Positions 6,257-37,686 of a DNA stretch of 37,993 nucleotides are shown here, piece by piece (within the stretch, counting starts at the first letter, position 1; every line of letters starts with the position of its first letter). The notes beneath the pieces were generated by a model, which saw only the letters and a program-made list of their open reading frames with translations, had not been told where the DNA came from and ran no database searches. The DNA is taken from assembly GCA_003135435.1 (NCBI GenBank), contig PLBR01000160.1:21327-59319 (forward strand), in the 5' to 3' direction. The DNA is from Nitrospira sp. (GTDB lineage Bacteria > Nitrospirota > Nitrospiria > Nitrospirales > Nitrospiraceae). A program made the translations under genes and the position numbers.

Positions 6257-6273
6257 AACGGTTGTAGTAGCAG

Positions 6274-6319
6274 AAACACCACGGGCTCATCCGGTCATCC
6301 GGATGAGCCCGTGGTGTTT
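6274..6319 (+). terminator. Strong hairpin at the end of the OFOR operon
   Basis: AAACACCACGGGCTCATCCGG TCAT CCGGATGAGCCCGTGGTGTTT: perfect 21-bp stem with 4-nt loop, 17 bp after the stop codon. Confidence 0.8.
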
Positions 6320-6322
6320 CTC

Positions 6323-6680: not shown

Positions 6681-7904
6681 ATGCCCATGCAACCCTTCAA
6701 CGAGAAGAAACCATCCAGTCTGTCACCGGAGATTCTAAGGGCCCTGGCAAAGGTGTCGTCCGAGCGAGACCTTCAGGGTGACTCCTTAGCGCAGGCGGTC
6801 GTAAACCTTTCACGTCTTTTTACGACGGCACGCGCAACATTGCCGCCGCGTTACCTGGATGATCCAGCCCACGCTTCTGCCTATCTGGCGTATTTTCTTC
6901 CTGTGAACCTCTCCAAAGTCCAAGCCCTGATGGACGAGCTGCCGAGTCCAGGCTGGACGGAAACGCCAGACCGTCCGATGGCTGTGCTCGATCTCGGCTG
7001 TGGCCAAGGGACTGGATCTTTAGCCCTGCTGGATTGGCTGTGGCATCGCAGCCCGGAGCGCGCAGGATCTGTGTCGGTCTTGGCCGCCGACACTTCCCCC
7101 GCACCATTGCAGGACTCGAAGAGGCTGTGGGAAGCCTATTGCCAGGAGGTTGGAATATCCAGCACAGGTCTCCGGTGTGTCGAGGGCAACCTGGAACATC
7201 CGCTCAAAGGCGATCTGGGTAAACAGATTGTGCGGGGCGGGCCGTATGACCTGATTATCATGGCGAACTGCCTCAATGAATTGTTTCCTGCATCGGTCGA
7301 TCCCCCAGCAGAGCGTGCTGTGGTTGTCGCGCAGCTCCTGCCGTTCCTCGCACCGCACGGCACCATCATGATCGTCGAGCCGGCACTGCGGCAGACGGCT
7401 CGGGCGCTGCATCATGTCCGTAATCACCTGCTCAAGCAAGGCGTTTGTACGGTCTATAGTCCTTGCCTACATGAAGGGGCCTGTCCGGCCTTAGACCGTC
7501 CAGACGATTGGTGTCATGAGGAGCGACCATGGCAGACGCCTCCTACGGTTGCCTCGATCGATCGGGACGTGGGGTTCATTAAAGACGCGTTGAAGTTCTC
7601 CTATCTGTTGTTGCGCACAGACGGTCGCACCATCGCGAGGCGGAGCCCGCAGACTTTCCGGGTCGTGAGCGAACTACGAAAATTGAAGGGGGAGAAGCGG
7701 GCCTGGTTGTGCAATGAAACAGGACGACCTGAAGTCGGTCGGCTGGATCGGAAGGCCTCTCCTCAAAATGCGGCTCTCGATAGTTGGCATCGCGGCGCGA
7801 TCGTCCAGATCGAACGGATCGTACGAAAAGAACGAGACGGAAAAGTCTCCCCAGTTGGAAGAATTGAGAGTGATGTGGCGGTCGAGATCGTTCGTCCCGT
7901 TTGA
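6681..7904 (+). CDS. Rsm22-like small-ribosomal-subunit SAM-dependent methyltransferase
   Basis: Rsm22-type N-terminus (ARATLPPRYLDDPAHASAYLAYFLPVNLSKVQALMDEL), VLDLGCGQGTGSLALLDWL SAM motif, PCLHEGACPAL and DWCHEERPW Cys/His motifs. Confidence 0.82.
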   Translation: MPMQPFNEKKPSSLSPEILRALAKVSSERDLQGDSLAQAVVNLSRLFTTARATLPPRYLDDPAHASAYLAYFLPVNLSKVQALMDELPSPGWTETPDRPMAVLDLGCGQGTGSLALLDWLWHRSPERAGSVSVLAADTSPAPLQDSKRLWEAYCQEVGISSTGLRCVEGNLEHPLKGDLGKQIVRGGPYDLIIMANCLNELFPASVDPPAERAVVVAQLLPFLAPHGTIMIVEPALRQTARALHHVRNHLLKQGVCTVYSPCLHEGACPALDRPDDWCHEERPWQTPPTVASIDRDVGFIKDALKFSYLLLRTDGRTIARRSPQTFRVVSELRKLKGEKRAWLCNETGRPEVGRLDRKASPQNAALDSWHRGAIVQIERIVRKERDGKVSPVGRIESDVAVEIVRPV

Positions 7905-7994: not shown

Positions 7995-8095
7995 GGGGAA
8001 AGAGCGGCCAGGTGCCCTTCTTGCTCGCAGAACGCGAACGGTGAAACTGTGCTCGTTCGATGCGCGCAGTAAAGGGCAGCCTCGGCCACTCCCTC
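7995..8095 (+). ncRNA. Structured element, copy A (candidate ncRNA/3'UTR motif)
   Basis: Core TTGCTCGCAGAACGCGAACGGTGAAACTGTGCTCGTTCGATGCGCGCAGTA shared with two copies at 32695-32996; enclosed by GGTGCCCTT (8011-8019) / AAGGGCAGCC (8072-8081). Confidence 0.6.
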
Positions 8096-8180
8096 TAGGA
8101 AAAAGTATAAGGAGTCGGAAGACCCTTGTTAGACGCGCGTACTTAAGGGATCAGCCCAGCCTCCCTAGTTAAAGAGTAGG

Positions 8181-8213
8181 GCGGGGACAGACCGCTGATA
8201 GGCCTGTCCCCGC
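8181..8213 (+). terminator. GC-rich hairpin downstream of structured element copy A
   Basis: GCGGGGACAG (8181-8190) ... CTGTCCCCGC (8204-8213), 10-bp perfect stem; no T-tract, so terminator function is uncertain. Confidence 0.35.
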
Positions 8214-10065: not shown

Positions 10066-10233
10066 TTAGCCTGCATTACTCATAAACGCTTCTGCTGCAA
10101 TCGCGGATTCGCCGCGGCTCGGTCGGTCAACATACTGTTTCAAGTATGCCTCCCTTCCTCGCGGCTCCGCGCGCCTGTCTCGCTTGGCGACTGCGCGATT
10201 TCGCGACGAACCGTCATGAGTAATGCGGGTTAG
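10066..10233 (+). repeat. MITE-like repeat family, copy 1
   Basis: TTAGCCtGCATTACTCATaA ... GTCATGAGTAATGCGGGTTAG TIRs; internal CATACTgtttcaAGTATG hairpin. Confidence 0.8.
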
Positions 10234-10283
10234 TATAGCGTTCACATGGAAGCGACTGCAACGTGACAGGGCCAGGTTTTCCC

Positions 10284-10864: not shown

Positions 10865-11047
10865 CTAGCCAGCATTATCCATGAAGCTTTTGCTACAAGC
10901 ACGGATACGCGGCTGTGACGGGCAGTCTCGCCGTTCAGCCCTTCGACATACTGCACGAGTATGCCTCAGGGCTTCACGGCTCCGAGTGCCCGTCTCGCTT
11001 CGCGTCTGCGCGTTTTCGCGACGAACCTTCATGAATAATGCTGGCTT
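10865..11047 (+). repeat. MITE-like repeat family, copy 2
   Basis: CTAGCCAGCATTATcCATGAA ... TTCATGAATAATGCTGGCTT; internal GACGGGCA/TGCCCGTC, AGCCCT/AGGGCT and CATACTgcacgAGTATG stems. Confidence 0.85.
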
Positions 11048-11093
11048 GGATCGTATGGCACAGATGCGAATACTTCACTGAGGACCTCTCTCG

Positions 11094-28490: not shown

Positions 28491-29693
28491 CTACTGAACG
28501 ATCGTCTGCTTCGTTTCATCGAGATGTTTCTGGAGATATGCCATGAAGGGTGTGCCGCCCGTTCCCACAGCAGTGGGGTTGCTCGCGTGGGCCTGATGCT
28601 GGCGGTGAATGTAGCTGTCGGCGTAGCCAATGTGGATCTCGCGAAATTGAGCGAGGAGATCGACGCAGGCGCAGTAGGCAGTCCAGAGATCTGGGATGCG
28701 GAGTTTCCGATCGCGAACATAGCCGGAGAGCAACGGACGTCCAAGATCGTCGGTGGCATTCTCCAACGCTTGCAGAAATGCACGGTGGCGCGGAGGCATG
28801 TAATCACGCATCTCTTGTAAATACACGGTCAAGGGATCAGGGGCATGGGCGATGCCGAGTCCGGCGTCGAGACAGGGGACAATAGAGCTTTGCGCGCCGG
28901 TCTCGCCTCGAAACTGCTGCGGCTGGCCGGCATAGGACTCGACGCCCTCGTAGGCGAGTCCGTTCGGTAAGGTAGGGCTGTTCTTCCAGCCATGGATGTA
29001 GGGCCGCACGCGATTGTAGTACACATAGGGATCGCAGCGCTCTTTCATCCTGAGCAACGTGTCGCGCATCGCCGCTTGGGCCAACGCCAAGGATTTGAGC
29101 CCAAGCAAGACCTCGTCCTCCTTGTTCTCGGCCGCACCTCTCATCGCGCGCAGGAGTCCAGCCAGCCCTGGTCCCGCTTCCCGCTCGATCTGGATGTGGA
29201 CCACGACAAACCACTCTTCATCCGAACCGCCGAGAAAATTTTGGAGCAGCACCATGTTGTCGAGCTGAATCGGCTTAGTCTGGTCGAGTCTCCGCCAGTT
29301 GTCGAGCGCATAGGACGCGTAGGAGAGAACTGGATGTCGTCCAAGCCGCTGGGCCACCTCGTGCCAGGGCTGTGCAAGTTGCGGTGGCAATGTCTCAACC
29401 GGTTGGTCCGGCACTTCCCACACATAGGCATGCCCGGCGAACGAAAGGATCCGCATCGCGGCCCGATAGTCTTCTGTGCGCCATGTTGGGGGGATGGAAG
29501 GAAGCAGTTGGCGTTGCTCGTCGATGAACCGCCGGACCGTCCGAGCGCTCAGCAATTTCGGCAACTCGCGTCCAAGATCGTTGAGGGTGGGGGAGTCGGG
29601 CAGATAGCCAAGGGGGTTTTGTGGGAGAAAGCCCTGTTCAGGCGAGATCTCGTAATCGGAGAGGTCGAGAGGAGCGAAGTTCGTTGATCTCAT
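28491..29693 (-). CDS. Indoleamine 2,3-dioxygenase family protein
   Basis: PVLSYASYALDNWRR; AQSSIVPCLDAGLGI; LQEMRDYMPPRHRAFLQALE; REIHIGYADSYIHRQ; GTGGTPFMAYLQKHLDET: IDO-family pattern including candidate heme-ligand His. Confidence 0.85.
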   Translation of the reverse strand: MRSTNFAPLDLSDYEISPEQGFLPQNPLGYLPDSPTLNDLGRELPKLLSARTVRRFIDEQRQLLPSIPPTWRTEDYRAAMRILSFAGHAYVWEVPDQPVETLPPQLAQPWHEVAQRLGRHPVLSYASYALDNWRRLDQTKPIQLDNMVLLQNFLGGSDEEWFVVVHIQIEREAGPGLAGLLRAMRGAAENKEDEVLLGLKSLALAQAAMRDTLLRMKERCDPYVYYNRVRPYIHGWKNSPTLPNGLAYEGVESYAGQPQQFRGETGAQSSIVPCLDAGLGIAHAPDPLTVYLQEMRDYMPPRHRAFLQALENATDDLGRPLLSGYVRDRKLRIPDLWTAYCACVDLLAQFREIHIGYADSYIHRQHQAHASNPTAVGTGGTPFMAYLQKHLDETKQTIVQ

Positions 29694-30760: not shown

Positions 30761-30937
30761 ACCGCATTATTCATGAACACTTCTGCTGCAATCGCCGATT
30801 CCTGACTCAAGCGAGACGGGCGAGACAGGCGGGAAAAGCGCGACTGCAGGGACAGGGCTCACACGTCACGCGAGTCTCGCTCCTCGCGCTTGTCGCGCGC
30901 TACTCCGGGACGAACCGTCATGAATAATGCGGGCTAG
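30761..30937 (+). repeat. MITE-like repeat family, copy 3
   Basis: ACCGCATTATTCATGAAC..TTCTGCTGCAATCGC ... GGGACGAACCGTCATGAATAATGCGGGCTAG. Confidence 0.85.
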
Positions 30938-32680: not shown

Positions 32681-32694
32681 CTTCACTAGATTTT

Positions 32695-32805
32695 AGCCTA
32701 GCAGGAGTGGGTGCAGGTGCTCCCTACTGTGCGCATCGACCGAGCACATTCTGATCGTGCGCGGTTTGCGAGCAAGGGAAGCATCTTCCCCGCTCCATCC
32801 TCCTA
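32695..32805 (-). ncRNA. Structured element, copy C (candidate ncRNA)
   Basis: Minus-strand core TTGCTCGCAAACCGCGCACGATCAGAATGTGCTCGGTCGATGCGCACAGTA within stem GATGC(T)TCCC/GGGAGCACC, followed by terminator 32651-32680. Confidence 0.6.
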
Positions 32806-32889: not shown

Positions 32890-32996
32890 CATTGCTGGCA
32901 GGAGTGGTGCGGGGTGGTCCACTTGCGCGCATCGGACGAGCACAGTTTTATCGTGCGCGTTCTGCGAGCACAGGGACCACCCCGCGCTGCTCCGTT
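32890..32996 (-). ncRNA. Structured element, copy B (candidate ncRNA)
   Basis: Minus strand GGGGTGGTCC-[CTGTGCTCGCAGAACGCGCACGATAAAACTGTGCTCGTCCGATGCGCGCAAGT]-GGACCACCCC, perfect 10-bp stem extended outward by GGAGyrGyGC pairing; followed by terminator 32846-32874. Confidence 0.65.
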
Positions 32997-32998
32997 CC

Positions 32999-35504
<2,506 letters not shown>

Positions 35505-35716
35505 TAGCCCCTCTGGGTTTGGGTGTGATCGGTAATCGGTCAAATGGCTGAATCCGCGCAATAGTATCTGAATGAGTCTTATTTTGTCCATTCCTCAGAA
35601 GGCAGGGGTCGACCGGGATGCTGACGCCCCGGTTGCTTGACAGCCGTTTCGGGCCACTTGTAAAATATTGAATTATTTTGGACTTACGCAGGCTTTCCCA
35701 CTCCCCATGGGACGGA

Positions 35717-35844
35717 CTAGCCGCGTTGTTCATGACGGTTCGTCGCGAAATCGCTGACCCGCGTCGCGAGCCCGCTGGCCGTAGGCCCGTCGTAGCAGTG
35801 GATCGGCGATTGCAGCAGAAGCGTTCATGTATAATGTGGGCTAG
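35717..35844 (-). repeat. MITE-like repeat family, copy 4 (inverted orientation)
   Basis: CTAGCCGCGTTGTTCATGACGGTTCGTCGCGAAA ... GGCGATTGCAGCAGAAGCGTTCATGTATAATGTGGGCTAG. Confidence 0.85.
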
Positions 35845-36249: not shown

Positions 36250-36785
36250 TGAGGTTCGCAATTGCTGGAACGGTTGTCTTCCTGATGGTCGCGATGGTTG
36301 GAATAGGCGGTGCGGCGGCGCCGGATATCCTGCCGGTCGCTGAGCGCAACGTCGTCAAGCTGGGTGAGCCGGCGCCGGACTTCCAGCTCCGAGATTTGAA
36401 TGGCCGTCTCGTGACGCTTTCGGACTTGCGTGGCAAAGTCGTGCTGCTGAATTTTTGGGCGACCTGGTGCGGCCCCTGCCGGGTAGAGATGCCGGCGATG
36501 GAGCAGCTCTATCGGACATTTTCGCGGAAGGATTTTGAGATTCTTGCAGTGTCCACCGACGCGCAAGGCGTGGCGATCACTAGGCCGTTTCAGCAAGAGA
36601 ACCACTTGACGTTTCCCATCCTCCACGATGCCGACTATCGCGTGGGATTGACCTATGGCGCACGGAGCCTCCCGATGACTTTCATGGTCGATCGACAAGG
36701 GGTTGTCCGCCACCAGATCTTTGGCGCGCGTGACTGGGGAGCTTCCGAAGCGCAGCAGCTAGTGCAGATGTTGATGAAATCCTAG
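36246..36785 (+). CDS. TlpA/ResA-like thiol-disulfide oxidoreductase
   Basis: LGEPAPDFQLRDLNGRLVTLSDLRGKVVLLNFWATWCGPCRVEMPAMEQLY; N-terminal signal/anchor. Confidence 0.92.
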   Translation: MMRFAIAGTVVFLMVAMVGIGGAAAPDILPVAERNVVKLGEPAPDFQLRDLNGRLVTLSDLRGKVVLLNFWATWCGPCRVEMPAMEQLYRTFSRKDFEILAVSTDAQGVAITRPFQQENHLTFPILHDADYRVGLTYGARSLPMTFMVDRQGVVRHQIFGARDWGASEAQQLVQMLMKS

Positions 36786-36819
36786 CTCGCCCGGATCATT
36801 CATGAATAACCCCGGTTAG
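36782..36819 (+). repeat. Minimal TIR-TIR palindrome of the MITE-like family
   Basis: CTAGCTCGCCCGGATCATTCATGAATAACCCCGGTTAG. Confidence 0.6.
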
Positions 36820-37587: not shown

Positions 37588-37686
37588 AGTTCTGAGTTCT
37601 GAGTTTTGAATTTGCTCAGTATTTGCAAATCCTTTTCAATCGGCATCAGTAACTCAGAACTCATAACTCAGAACTCTAAACTATTT
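37588..37686. repeat. Inverted period-7 tracts between ccdA and dapB
   Basis: AAGTTCT GAGTTCT GAGTTTT GAATTTG ... AACTCAG AACTCAT AACTCAG AACTCTA AACTATT. Confidence 0.85.

Follow-up and report, generated by a model that had tools for sequence, protein, structure and literature searches.

Genomes of the Nitrospira family harbour a lineage-specific palindromic repeat that occurs about a hundred times in each genome; the hairpin under study is one copy. The explanation that best accommodates its sequence features, and to which we assign roughly even confidence, is an orientation-locked, REP/BIME-like palindromic repeat that does not depend on RAYT, hence a DNA element whose constrained hairpin would lie on the strand opposite the gene.

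Results

Copies in the window and their flanking genes

The window, by which we mean the whole stretch of 37,993 nucleotides of Nitrospira DNA that was analysed, contains three copies (A, B and C). Folding of copy A as RNA and as DNA gives a hairpin at about 8002-8091 on the plus strand, with an outer stem of 8002-8020 paired with 8072-8091 (arms GGTGCCCTT and AAGGGCAGCC) that encloses the type-1 core TTGCTCGCAGAACGCGAACGGTGAAACTGTGCTCGTTCGATGCGCGCAGTA (8021-8071, +) with its helices, its fixed T.C and C.T mismatches and its GA bulge. The minimum free energy as RNA is -48.8 kcal/mol compared to a shuffled mean of -31.9, and 0 of 200 shuffles were as good. A first-pass annotation of the same DNA had called this a third copy with a core common to B and C, and blastn inside the window bears that out, with copy B recovered at 32687-32800 (-, E 2e-14) and copy C at 32892-33003 (-, E 6e-14). 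The upstream gene is Rsm22-like, as was claimed, and encodes a methyltransferase (6681-7904, +; Pfam Rsm22, PF09243, E 2.5e-14); copy A does follow it in the same orientation, its hairpin starting ~98 nt past the stop (~90 nt in that annotation).

As whole hairpins, copy B occupies 32702-32797 (-, core 32725-32775) and copy C 32897-32999 (-, core 32921-32971); with R1, a covariance model built from 18 copies, they score 87.3 and 82.6 bits. Both lie downstream of the S-adenosylhomocysteine hydrolase (AdoHcyase) gene (32999-34423, -; PF05221 E 1e-67, PF00670 E 3e-52), itself preceded by metK (34356-35591; PF02773 E 5e-67), and copy C begins directly at the AdoHcyase stop codon. Copy A represents the dispersed class, found at some distance from genes, and copy C the class placed directly at a stop codon. 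At 8117-8141 (+), a match to the type-2 consensus GGAAGACCCTCGTTGGACGCGCGCA identifies GGAAGACCCTTGTTAGACGCGCGTA as the 3' half of a decayed type-2 core; from this sequence relationship copy A is probably nested in the loop of a decayed type-2 hairpin, with the same nesting in other copies. The GC-rich 10-bp hairpin reported earlier at 8181-8213 (+) is present as a separate, perfect element (GCGGGGACAG/CTGTCCCCGC), and no T-run follows it.

Several further features of the window were recorded on their own account. A perfect 23-bp inverted repeat with a 4-nt loop lies between genes at 6272-6321. A further repeat family whose ends resemble TTCATGAATAATGCGGGCTAG, perhaps a MITE, occurs in direct and inverted copies at 10067-10236, 10867-11051, 30762-30937, 35721-35844 and 36779-36819. 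Foldbacks of the type AGTTCTGAGTT place the same low-complexity inverted repeat at window positions 37588-37682 and at atpG|atpD of this genome (L248, 8143-8244). An indoleamine 2,3-dioxygenase family gene in a Nitrospira genome is found at 28491-29693 (-; Pfam IDO, E 4e-88).

Core and stem architecture

The type-1 unit is a hairpin of ~90-100 nt in which a conserved core of ~50 nt is set within an outer stem that differs by site. The core consensus, TTGC-T-CGCA-GAACG-C-GCAC-GATGAAACT-GTGC-T-CGTTC-GA-TGCG-C-GCA, comprises nested covarying helices, two fixed 1x1 mismatches (T.C and C.T), a 2-nt GA bulge and a variable apical loop, and it is strand-asymmetric. Across 149 distinct rows 96.3% of the cells are paired, and 301 double-changed cells compare with 73 +/- 12 in shuffles, a count that leans towards the structure as the alignment had been fitted to the model. 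Covariation extends to the inner stem, and the core signal is lost when the pairing partner is slid. The second core type, TTGCTCGCGCAACGCGCGGTCTCGGAAGACCCTCGTTGGACGCGCGCAG, is built in the same way, and type 1 is often nested in the type-2 loop.

That a stem of unrelated sequence keeps its pairing intact, noticed originally for three copies, extends to 39 distinct outer stems: the mean duplex energy with the own partner is -28.8 kcal/mol compared to -15.1 +/- 0.6 when partners are swapped, and 0 of 200 permutations were as low. The contention that such independent stems strongly favour selection on structure is upheld by the many stems and by the core covariation, yet at less than the strength claimed. 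Template switching is reported to homogenise palindrome arms and invert the spacer (PMC8604942) and to create and maintain RNA hairpins (PMC8794818), so that arms can be kept alike without selection; moreover, the outer stem at the orthologous atpD|atpC site drifts, with 88% paired. The 4 double-changed pairs found there, against 1.2 expected, imply some true compensation together with decay.

Rfam covariance models gave no match on the type-1 or type-2 element, even below gathering thresholds; a DUF805b match at 8145-8182 (E 0.05) is below gathering. The core string was absent from the published texts searched, and a REP survey that includes N. moscoviensis counted only generic palindromes (PMC12306157).

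Distribution

The genome of origin, a Nitrospira MAG of 4.34 Mb, yields 43 matches by DNA search and 101-111 copies with R1. All 32 genomes examined in the genus carry the repeat (13-132 R1 hits each). In a sample of the phylum, counted under stricter filters than the genus, it is present in 58 of 62 Nitrospira-family genomes and in 0 of 183 outside the family. The named contigs that carry the exact core are Nitrospira or Nitrospirae MAGs, with the exception of a 7.4-Mb MAG labelled Pyrinomonadaceae bacterium SH2 (G306; L092, L103), whose six copies on five contigs suggest mis-binned Nitrospira contigs.

Placement relative to genes

With gene boundaries from a hexamer gene caller, 0 of 171 distinct copies sampled lie inside genes. 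Among copies no more than 60 nt from the edge of a gene, those behind a stop are sense in 72 cases and antisense in 0, and those before a start are sense in 21 and antisense in 1; the absence of orientation bias relative to genes, named earlier as the counter-case, is not what the tabulation gave. The 72 stop-proximal copies follow 51 distinct upstream genes, and in 61 of them the core starts at most 35 nt from the stop, leaving room for the 5' arm alone. There are 27 copies that lie after a stop and before a start on the same strand, no more than 80 nt away. Farther from genes, orientation is without clear bias. Occupied junctions, their genes named from flanking peptides (atpD and atpC by Pfam), include atpD|atpC, nuoA|nuoB, nuoD|nuoE, rpsJ|rplC, rplA|rplJ, purS|purQ, folD|metF and guaA|rluB.

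Three simple accounts of this placement were tried and set aside. Intrinsic termination is rejected by 0 of 164 copies with at least 4 consecutive T within 10 nt after the stem. The stop codons used near copies differ little from background usage, against the idea that the element supplies the stop codon. Derivation of the 3' arm as a copied inversion of the gene 3' end was not clearly above control (11.9 compared to 10.7 paired coding nt).

The constrained strand

Read on the gene-sense strand, the mismatches in 71 stems are A.C in 93 cases and G.U in 18 (p 2e-13), or 44 stems against 5 when stems are counted. Because the mismatches tolerated on the gene strand are A.C and not G.U, pairing appears to be kept on the complementary strand. 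The ratio of A.C to G.U is 51:6 in the 36 stems that differ at more than 5 of 16 positions, 16:2 in the nine stop-proximal stems that are strictly distinct and 47:9 in type 2. Where both neighbouring genes run in the opposite direction to the copy, the ratio read on the element's own strand is still 11:2, so that the bias seems tied to the element and not to transcription. Mismatches of the transversion kind are likewise rare (29), which fits purging of all but bottom-strand G.T/G.U wobble.

Folding agrees in direction, the complement being favoured in 83% of distinct stems with RNA and 92% with DNA parameters. The reverse complement folds better for all three window copies: slightly for A (-50.5 vs -48.8 kcal/mol on the plus strand), clearly for B (-54.0 vs -43.9) and most for C, whose complement has an uninterrupted outer stem of ~20 bp (-69.4 vs -57.3). 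A milder excess of A.C is seen in other foldbacks near stops too (31:16, p 0.04), and part of the strand signal could therefore be a general mutational effect; a terminator control for G.U tolerance gave A.C 4 and G.U 3 from just 7 mismatches. The kinds of mismatch point to base pairing being maintained on the complement of the gene strand. The A.C mismatches and the better folding of the window copies as complement do not support the first-pass idea of a functional 3' RNA transcribed with the gene, and selection on a sense 3'UTR RNA is only partly supported; the repeat is probably more than a regulatory mRNA hairpin.

Turnover and mobility

There are copies on different contigs that are 90-99% identical, and dispersed copies have in common stretches of roughly 150-250 nt that are 90-94% identical. 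The orthologous junctions of ahcY, atpD|atpC and nuoD|nuoE hold type 1 with differing stems, type 2 or quite different foldbacks; at some ahcY sites the 3' half of the element is retained behind another foldback. Compact gaps are seen at nuoD|nuoE only, and L268, L276 and L278 have no hairpin at this junction. In one genome (G003) the atpD|atpC site L240 has its type-2 core inverted within a kept outer stem, a clean spacer inversion in a palindrome. Near-identical dispersed copies and swaps at junctions together imply that the element moves or is converted, and that hairpins replace one another.

Unrelated large foldback families (CAGGATGCTGAAAAAG, CGGCGGGCCTGAGGCTCGC, TCGCGGGTCCTGTCGCTGACC, GTGAAACGTGAAAGG and GTCAATGGTCAATG) also begin right at stop codons, one family taking the place of another from genome to genome; their loci are L190-L205 and L215 at the ahcY 3' junction, L223, L227, L237 and L245 at atpD|atpC, and L254-L277 at nuoD|nuoE. 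A protein mobilising the repeat was not identified. The genome of origin (G000) has 33 matches to the integron-integrase model, all under the cut-off; these are probably other tyrosine recombinases and possibly the place to look for a candidate mobilising enzyme.

Discussion

On the explanation favoured here, the unit would be kept and spread as a DNA element, with the complementary ('bottom') strand folding as a single-stranded hairpin that may be recognised via the fixed G.A and A.G mismatches (T.C and C.T on the gene strand). Template switching during replication could re-make and homogenise the arms, invert cores and help to swap one hairpin type for another. Copies transcribed within operons would constitute intercistronic hairpins and, by analogy to intercistronic REPs, might adjust how stable the flanking cistrons are, or how strongly expressed, relative to one another. 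Set against this explanation are the lack of an identified mobilising protein, the milder A.C excess in other foldbacks, and the compensation and decay seen together at atpD|atpC. In addition, a DNA element by itself leaves unexplained the stop-codon preference and the single direction, for which RNA function accounts more easily.

The main rival is a cis-acting RNA of the gene strand, an intercistronic or 3'UTR hairpin serving to stabilise the mRNA upstream of it or to bind a protein, in a role such as the REP literature suggests. The strictly sense orientation directly behind stops speaks for it, as do the operons concerned, whose subunit ratios could be tuned (atpD|atpC, rplA|rplJ, nuoA|nuoB, rpsJ|rplC), the re-occupation of the same junctions by other hairpin families and the T-run result, which makes the copies non-terminators. 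It has difficulty with gene-strand mismatches of the A.C and not the G.U kind, with the preferred folding of the complement in both parameter sets and with the hairpin-free state of nuoD|nuoE in some genomes. We consider a sense RNA doubtful as the primary explanation, and possible as a secondary effect. If the complementary strand were itself transcribed, the repeat could be a structured antisense RNA, for instance one that stops or marks antisense transcripts running into the 3' ends of genes. The pairing constraint does fall on that strand, and the fixed mismatches read G.A and A.G on it, both of which are common in structured RNA. However, each of ~100 copies, many of them inside operons, would need antisense transcription, and no Rfam family was matched on either strand, leaving this proposal improbable in our estimation.

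Equally improbable is that the palindromes are passive, made and perfected around a chance core by template switching, such that covariation reflects mutation and not function. The process is a known one (PMC8794818, PMC8604942), and the spacer inversion at L240 and the decay of outer stems in orthologues are what it could produce. Left unexplained are one conserved asymmetric core in every genome of the genus, the mismatches retained in that core, the one-way orientation behind stops and the asymmetry of A.C over G.U. Somewhat less improbable than either of these, yet still unlikely, is an attC-like principle outside integrons: a stop-anchored single-stranded DNA hairpin site on the strand opposite the gene, served by a putative recombinase or transposase, would have colonised the operon junctions of the family and would swap hairpins continually.

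The repeat has importance beyond its own description. Nitrospira is central to nitrification, and its core operons for ATP synthase, complex I and ribosomal proteins are punctuated by these repeats. How palindromic repeats come to be tied to stop codons is an open question for REPs and integron attC alike, and the family offers a means of testing it, with natural replicates by the hundred that differ in stem, core, orientation and neighbour, each independently of the others. New and unexpected is the apparent preservation of stem pairing on the complement, according to A.C rather than G.U mismatches. Counting A.C against G.U is an easy way to ask, from sequence alone, which of a palindrome's strands is constrained, and here the answer goes against the obvious mRNA reading.

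Comparison with known systems

REPs and BIMEs are imperfect palindromes found extragenically in high copy number, chiefly downstream of ORFs, that are clustered and composite (PMC3116915, PMC3733652). The Nitrospira repeat resembles REP, BIME and REPIN elements in being high-copy, extragenic, palindromic, clustered, composite and for the most part placed after ORFs, and differs from the GTAG/CGTC REPs, with units of about 20-40 bp that have the unpaired tag at one end, in its ~90-100-nt unit, variable outer stem, conserved core and gene-locked orientation. REP tags were found in few 5' flanks (GTAG in 21 and CGTC in 3 of 171 copies). The RAYT domain Y1_Tnp is absent from 13 of the 32 genus genomes, including G025, G026 and G027 at 99% completeness with 93-108 copies, and R1 copies are near only 2 of 24 Y1 loci (0 of 7 in the genome of origin). 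A RAYT-dependent REP is rejected on tag, unit size and missing or unlinked RAYT.

Integron attC sites conserve structure above sequence, have fixed unpaired bases, lie behind stops in one direction and are constrained in their bottom-strand fold. The Nitrospira repeat is like them in conserved structure, fixed unpaired bases, one-way stop anchoring and, judging from mismatch types, bottom-strand constraint, and unlike them in having fixed housekeeping operons as neighbours. The boxes RYYYAAC (R'') and GTTRRRY (R'), which attC sites have at the base of the hairpin, are both present in 0 of 164 copies, and the best match to the integron integrase TIGR02249 in the genome of origin scores 77.8 bits against a cut-off of 265; without boxes and without an integrase over the cut-off, attC membership is rejected. 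ERIC, NEMIS, BOX, SMAG and similar MITE-like palindromes have a constant stem or terminal repeats. With these the Nitrospira repeat has in common that it is an intergenic hairpin restricted to one lineage, and it is set apart from them, by their general descriptions, through a stem that is site-specific around a core that is constant. Finally, arm homogenisation and central inversion connect it to template-switch quasi-palindromes (PMC8604942), from which it is distinguished by having one defined core at ~100 loci per genome, family-wide.
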